Assembly (NCBI RefSeq): GCF_000170795.1
Contig: NZ_ABCM01000007.1
Span: 62,001-126,000 of the forward strand
Reading direction: 5' to 3'
From: Pedobacter sp. BAL39
Lineage (GTDB): Bacteria; Bacteroidota; Bacteroidia; Sphingobacteriales; Sphingobacteriaceae
DNA: 64,000 bases
Part shown: positions 57,883-58,963 of the stretch, piece after piece
How positions within the stretch are numbered: the first letter of the stretch is position 1
Layout: each line of letters begins with the position of its first letter
Program-made: the position numbers and the translations under genes
The notes under the pieces: generated by a model
The model's database searches: none
Told to the model about the DNA's origin: nothing
Seen by the model: the letters and a program-made list of their open reading frames with translations, nothing else

Positions 57883-58480
57883 TTACCTGTTTTCCTTAAA
57901 CTGACTGCCCAGTCGCTCAAACTTTTCAATCAGCAATGAAATGCGCTCCTTATCTCTTTTAATTACAGCCTTCCTGACTAACGTTGAGCAGAAGAGCATC
58001 CATCCGAAGGTAAATAGGATGATGAATACCTGTGTCCATATCGTGAAATAGGAGAGTACCTCAAAAAAGTAAAGGGTGATGCCCAGGCTCAGTGTGATGG
58101 TATACAACCAGTAGGCCTTATTGTGGAGACTAAGTCTGCTGAGCTGGTAACGCTTCAGGTTGGCCAGAAAGGCATTGGGGTCGCTGGTGAAATCATTTCT
58201 GCTGATGAGCAGGTGGTTTCTGTACAATACAAAAGTGGAGGCCGAAACCGCAACTATAAATAAAGTCAGTCCCGCATGTGTGGTCCATGATTTAAACTCA
58301 AAGAAGAACCATAACACGGCGAGTGCGACCAGTGACAACAGCATGCCGGCAATATTTAAGATCGACTTGCTGCGGATGCATTCACTTCTTTCTTCGCTTG
58401 TTGCAGCATCTCATCAGAAGAGATTTTACCTCTACAGAGTGGGTTTGCCAAAGCGATTGTATGTGATCAAATTCTTGCAT
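57883..58480 (-). pseudogene. Membrane protein paired with the sigma gene, broken by two frameshifts
   Basis: From ATG 58480 the first frame reads MQEFDHIQSLWQTHSVEV, then goes wrong at a TTTT run (58424-58427). A second frame continues ISSDEMLQQAKKEVNA until a stop at 58356-58358. A third frame (SILNIAGMLLSLVALAV) continues to the stop at 57883. The pieces join into one protein of about 198 residues with a soluble N-terminal part and about four membrane helices, as is usual for the gene after an ECF sigma gene in Bacteroidota. Each join needs one extra base. Only the 153-residue C-terminal frame (57883-58344) is intact. Confidence 0.75.
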
Positions 58481-58963
58481 GCTGGTTGTATAGTTCTGTA
58501 AGTTTTAATTTAATGCGGTGAATTTTACCCTTAGATTTCCCTCGCTGATTCCGGAGATTTCCGCAATCTCATGGTAGGGAAGCTCGTCGAGCACCATGGT
58601 GATGATGAGCCTGTCATTTTCCTCCAGCTGGGAAATCGATTTGTAAAGCAGGGCAATCTGTTCGTTCTTCTCGGAGAACTCTTCAGGCCTGGTTTCGATG
58701 ATGTTTTCCGTCAGCTCGTCCTTGGCCTGTCTCTTTTCAGAGCGTAGGTAGGTGAGGCAGGTGTTTACGGCGATGCGGTAGATCCAGGTCGATATGAGCG
58801 ACTTATTTCTGAATTTGTCCAGATTCTGCCATACTTTTAGGAAAGTCTCCTGAAGAAGGTCGTTGGCAGCATCTTCATCCCCCGTATAACCATAACATAA
58901 ATGGAAAATCTTTTTGGAATTGGTGTCGAAGATTTGTTTAAATAACTGGTCTTTTTTTTCCAT
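58467..58963 (-). pseudogene. ECF sigma factor, frameshifted in the region 4 recognition helix
   Basis: An ECF-type RNA polymerase sigma factor with region 2 (HLCYGYTGDEDAANDLLQET, WIYRIAVNTCLTYLRSEKR) and region 4 up to YHEIAEISGISEGNLRVK. The frame then ends early (FTALN and a stop at 58505-58507, giving 152 residues). One extra A in the GTAAAATTC stretch (the plus-strand TTTT run at 58523-58526) restores the family ending VKIHRIKLKL and moves the stop to 58467-58469. The truncated form lacks the end of the helix that reads the -35 region. The restored end overlaps the start of the membrane gene by 14 bp. Confidence 0.8.

Follow-up and report, generated by a model that had tools for sequence, protein, structure and literature searches.

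Three clustered one-base losses in an ECF sigma factor gene and its putative anti-sigma partner in Pedobacter sp. BAL39

The sigma factor gene and its overlapping membrane partner

The window, i.e., the whole 64,000-nucleotide stretch of Pedobacter sp. BAL39 DNA that was analyzed, carries on its minus strand an ECF sigma factor gene that overlaps a downstream membrane partner gene, with three one-base losses distributed over the two (Table 1). The sigma ORF (58963-58505) contains both of the domains that define an ECF factor, namely Sigma-70 regions 2 and 4, with scores above the respective cut-offs (Sigma70_r2, 68.9 bits; Sigma70_r4_2, 32.1 bits; TIGR02937, 102.3 bits), and the TIGR02937 match marks it as an ordinary member of this class. 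Its C-terminal end reads ..GNLRVKFTALN and leaves the recognition helix of region 4 incomplete: the Sigma70_r4_2 match stops at profile position 45 (positions 3-45 of 54), as against positions 4-54, at 43.2 bits, in the intact sigma factor of P. frigoris. This bears out the original prediction that the ORF ends at FTALN inside that helix. The nearest PDB relative of the P. frigoris copy is SigW. In a protein search of the genome there is no second copy of the gene, the next-best sigma factor being 37% identical.

The partner starts with an ATG at 58480-58478 and reads in succession through MQEFDHIQSLWQTHSVEVK, SSDEMLQQAKKEVN, and IRSKSILNIAGML.., each in a different frame. Scans of four intact partners from relatives gave no family name above cut-off in Pfam or NCBIfam, and a PDB search with a profile of 36 partner sequences gave no match. 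A structural model of the intact partner from the relative G087 (mean pLDDT 76; about 50 for residues 1-20) has a short helix at 2-13, predicted with low confidence, followed by long helices at 22-60, 66-95, 102-143, and 148-197. Judging by their residues, these four long helices probably cross the membrane. The operon layout suggests that the overlapping membrane protein is probably an anti-sigma factor. Partners of this kind (195-204 aa; Pedobacter, Mucilaginibacter, and related genera) may constitute a candidate for an undescribed anti-sigma family.

Table 1. Features of the sigma factor/partner locus, in coordinates of the window
Feature	Position	Strand	Basis
Present ECF sigma factor ORF, 152 aa, cut off in region 4	58505..58963	-	ORF and Pfam profiles
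Full extent of the sigma gene, 165 aa and stop, one base short	58467..58963	-	Comparison with relatives
Partner membrane gene, ~199 aa in Pedobacter relatives, three reading frames	57883..58480	-	Frame reading and relatives
Overlap of sigma stop with partner start, 14 bp	58467..58480	-	ORFs and relatives
Site 1: A4 run lacking one base of relatives' V-K-I codons	58523..58526	-	DNA alignment
Site 2: A4 run, GGTAAAAT context as at site 1	58424..58427	-	DNA alignment
Site 3: base lost at AAT-GC, outside any A run	58378..58380 (about 58379)	-	DNA alignment

Three one-base losses in two adjacent genes

DNA alignments to P. frigoris (L069; 572/727 identities) and G087 (825/1,102 identities) place one absent base at each of the three joins. 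Site 1, at residue 148 of 165 and thus close to the 3′ end of the gene, interrupts the recognition helix in region 4 of the sigma factor. Sites 2 and 3 break the partner, in whose model site 2 falls after the short helix but before the first long one, and site 3 within the latter. Relative to P. frigoris, the base lost at sites 1 and 2 is an A in GTAAAAAT, and site 3 lies at AAT-GC. For site 2 the P. frigoris sequence reads AAAA but that of G087 AAAG, and the lost base may accordingly be A or G. The 8-mer GGTAAAAT is common to sites 1 and 2.

The main elements of the original prediction are upheld by these alignments. One frame over from the end of the sigma ORF the sequence reads HRIKLKLTELYNQHARI up to a stop at 58469-58467, such that one added A, the base missing with respect to P. 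frigoris, restores both the sigma ending and the 14-bp overlap. The partner is likewise legible in three successive frames with one base missing per join, and the three same-direction shifts, proposed to lie within 170 bp, span about 147 bp. A basis in A runs holds only in part: five A occur at site 1 in 52 of 109 relatives' loci, not in all of them, and the loss at site 3 falls outside an A run. Separately, we observed that of the 60 bases at 58451-58510, a segment that includes the sigma/partner overlap, one departs from G087 even with silent sites counted, whereas the flanks are far more diverged.

Conservation of the pair among relatives

We compared the locus with 109 loci of relatives, comprising 80 named ones (L069-L148, the best 80 of 568) and the 29 best others (L150-L178), with some genomes in both sets and the present genome left out; being chosen as best matches, they form a sample that leans to good matches. 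The sigma factor is intact, with 165 residues, in all 109 of these best-matching loci; orthologues sharing the short end seen here, which would have refuted the original prediction, are absent among them. In 108 the partner ORF is complete, at 195-204 aa (in L136 the partner runs off the contig end). The overlap measures 14 bp at 107 loci and, via an upstream ATG, 20 bp at two, and no locus has a shifted site. Protein matches to both genes were recovered in 36 of the 36 genus genomes searched, this one included, and the partner in none of the 23 genomes from other genera in the same protein-search sample; the named loci nevertheless place it in Mucilaginibacter and further relatives. At the DNA level, 144 of 145 genus genomes, again including this one, match the region (all but G135), which indicates presence of a match rather than intactness, the best full-length DNA match being 75%. 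A search of this genome with the pattern GGTAAAAATTNNNCG, too strict to be informative, gave one match. Together, the sequence comparisons indicate that the frames are meant to be joined, that the pair is near-universal in the genus, and that the intact sequence beneath the shifts would correspond to an ordinary ECF sigma factor/membrane partner operon of genus-wide occurrence.

Coding constraint and the case for recoding

Codons were compared over 77 of the 109 loci, representing 70 distinct relatives (L117-L148 were omitted as more distant, and the shift codons were set as unknown). Departures at residues invariant in the 70 distinct relatives number 0/109 in the sigma factor and 0/23 in the partner. 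Against the nearest relative, the sigma factor has pN 0.020 and pS 0.82, and the partner pN 0.15 and pS 0.87 (printed range for other relative pairs, 0.06-0.21). Hence, the relaxed constraint of a pseudogene is not seen at any of the 132 invariant residues, in a test to which a very recent event is invisible: in its leave-one-out version the relatives average only about 0.24 departures each, because of which a very recent real loss would also pass. Old decay is thereby excluded, but very recent loss is not. On these comparisons both genes appear to have been fully constrained until the shifts arose, if ever they arose.

Preservation of coding on both sides of every shift is also compatible with recoding, whereby ribosome or RNA polymerase slippage at the GGTAAAAT sites would yield full proteins. 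The 8-mer shared by sites 1 and 2 fits such a process, since backward slippage of a tRNA-Lys by one base is conceivable there. However, a programmed frameshift is expected at a site conserved in relatives and 0/109 loci are shifted; in place of a slippery heptamer or long A run with a stimulator there are A runs only four long at sites 1 and 2 and none at site 3, which offers no slippage; and RNA folds 3′ of the sites do not improve on those of shuffled sequences (z 0.92, 0.18, 0.54), with no downstream stimulator standing out among them. Moreover, full-length partner would be made only if two efficient events followed one another. The part of the GeneTack survey considered here ties transcriptional slippage to runs of >7 A and reports 10% frameshifting for a tested A7 cassette (PMC3711429), i.e., longer runs than the A4 found here. 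We accordingly regard recoding as very improbable. The specific version in which the organism carries all three losses and efficient minus-one slippage at both GGTAAAAT sites, along with another event at site 3, nevertheless yields the two proteins is more improbable still. Thus, of the three meanings initially offered, namely error, recent decay, and slippage-based decoding, the last is disfavored by the unshifted relatives, the A4 runs, site 3, and the folds, leaving error, which we favor, and very recent decay.

Frameshift background of the genome

To place the cluster against the rest of the 5.79 Mb assembly (47 contigs), ORFs from 1.6 Mb of G087 were compared with 466 kb sampled from this genome (including the window and 2 kb of blanks), retaining queries whose top match had at least 55% identity and 100 bits (174 queries, 57,378 aligned aa). 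Detection needs two aligned pieces per shift, and the shift count is therefore a lower limit. Shifts were detected in three genes, namely the sigma factor, the partner, and a 1,028-aa protein near C41:195935; outside the pair there is thus one other interior shift in 174 comparisons with G087. This background of one event per 172 kb coding gives 0.0009 events expected per 150 bp, and the observed clustering is far above it. The claim that the rest of the window is intact stands on the 47 G087 queries best-matched there under a like filter, among which only the sigma factor and the partner are shifted. The 1,028-aa G087 protein, AsmA-like by eye, matches G000:C41:195930-195951 (L185, outside the window) in two frames, with one base missing mid-gene. 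When 169 ORFs of this genome were in turn compared with G087, a single candidate emerged, one side of which is 46% identical; looser limits over 400 kb of G087 yielded two reverse candidates.

A coding-frame HMM run on the 466-kb sample recovered 96, 84, 69, and 56 of 100 planted losses at costs 6, 8, 10, and 12, and made 107, 39, 20, and 9 calls, respectively (40 of the 107 cost-6 calls were listed); an earlier version had found 23/60 planted losses and made five calls, two of them at stretch ends. We inspected by eye 17 of the calls made at cost 8 (39 in all), including the full set of nine from cost 12. One of the 17, C41:195939, clearly shifts frame mid-gene, and the other 16, to judge by eye, resemble gene junctions or weak calls. 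The single cost-8 call in the window is by eye a gene junction. The sigma cluster was not called at any cost shown, indicating that the HMM is blind to short segments. Overall, the sampled genome is clean and the shift cluster is local.

General undercalling of homopolymers was considered as a source of the losses and found no support: open frames of at least 150 aa hold 2,200 homopolymer runs of 5-9, a count that is partly circular since broken frames are shorter, and the A8 run within the sigma gene is retained. A systematic, motif-linked base-calling error (e.g., due to methylation) at GGTAAAAAT, the context common to sites 1 and 2, is likewise scarcely credible. The density of the motif is 40.8 per Mb in this genome as against 55.6 in G087, the same ratio as for A5 runs in general (3,513 vs 4,826 per Mb), which largely refutes such an error, and the motif is absent at site 3. 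For each A-run length from 4 to 10, the 466-kb sample has fewer runs per Mb than the G087 sample.

Local consensus error or very recent loss

The occurrence of three same-direction losses in about 147 bp, in genes with unrelaxed coding and against a clean background, suggests one local cause. We propose that the three losses, confined to a patch of about 150 bp, would represent a consensus or assembly error, possibly stemming from a thinly covered or gap-filled stretch, with the bases probably present in the living cell. This technical cause is, on balance, the reading that we hold to be probable. It agrees with the expectation that homology-confirmed singleton frameshifts are sequencing errors over genuine indels, as given in the portion of the GeneTack survey drawn upon here (PMC3711429). 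Counted against error is the lack of a general error problem in the sample, in which the 2,200 runs of 5-9 stand in frames, the A8 is kept, and GGTAAAAAT is found 19 times. Site 1, with its five A in about half of the relatives' loci (52/109), is the sort of place for real indels too. The same source holds that a shift near the 3′ end of a gene is likelier a real indel than an error (PMC3711429), and the position of the sigma shift therefore counts against the error reading.

We rate a true and very recent inactivation, perhaps in lab culture, as a tentative but serious alternative. Here, the partner would have been lost first, freeing the sigma factor, which would then have been lost as a suppressor, followed by a neutral deletion in the dead partner. 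Such a course is consistent with the clean sampled genome, with the short A runs at two of the three losses, with the single interior loss in one further gene outside the window, and with both members of the pair being hit, as selection would favor; the 3′ position of the sigma shift again fits a real indel, going by the part of the survey cited here (PMC3711429). However, it requires three separate deletions within about 150 bp, or 14% of the length of the pair. For events placed at random over 1,083 bp (the pair being 1,081), the chance that three span so short a distance is 0.05, even before the demand that each be a one-base loss. If indels arise at roughly one tenth of the rate of substitutions, three neutral indels would be accompanied by about 30 substitutions, of which about eight would fall at invariant residues, and none is seen, though indels under selection would weaken this objection. 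If real, the losses would amount to one lineage's loss of an otherwise near genus-wide ECF switch, a modest point. On the favored reading of a local consensus error, the lesson is one of caution, in that about 150 bp would get a conserved regulator pair annotated as broken in this species. The intact pair with its nameless membrane partner is a more durable object than the shifts.

Relationship to known systems

Our literature search found no paper joining Pedobacter, an ECF sigma factor, and an anti-sigma factor. The shifts are not novel as a mechanism. Most likely they are an artefact superimposed on an ordinary operon, and possibly a very recent loss. They resemble the singleton frameshifted genes of the GeneTack survey, as far as these are described in the part considered, in being confirmed by homology and in lacking a conserved site in relatives, and differ from them in the clustering of three shifts in two adjacent genes (PMC3711429).

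Anti-sigma factors are divided into class I, with a four-helix domain, and class II, of a two-helix type, according to the section of the source used here (PMC7406223). The roughly 100-aa four-helix cytoplasmic domain of class I is found neither in the G087 partner model nor, by Pfam, in the four intact partners. In the modeled structure, the short N-terminal part of the partner, with its short helix and the start of a long one, might be likened to class II factors such as CnrY, as the latter are presented in the same section (PMC7406223). In contrast to the CnrY type, the putative anti-sigma partner has four long helices, probably membrane ones, with no Pfam or NCBIfam match above cut-off and no PDB sequence match. 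The closest counterparts of the locus are the orthologous pairs of ECF sigma factor and overlapping partner in Pedobacter, Mucilaginibacter, and related genera, with a 165-aa sigma factor, a 195-204 aa partner, and a 14-bp overlap in 107/109, from which the copy in the window differs by its three one-base losses.
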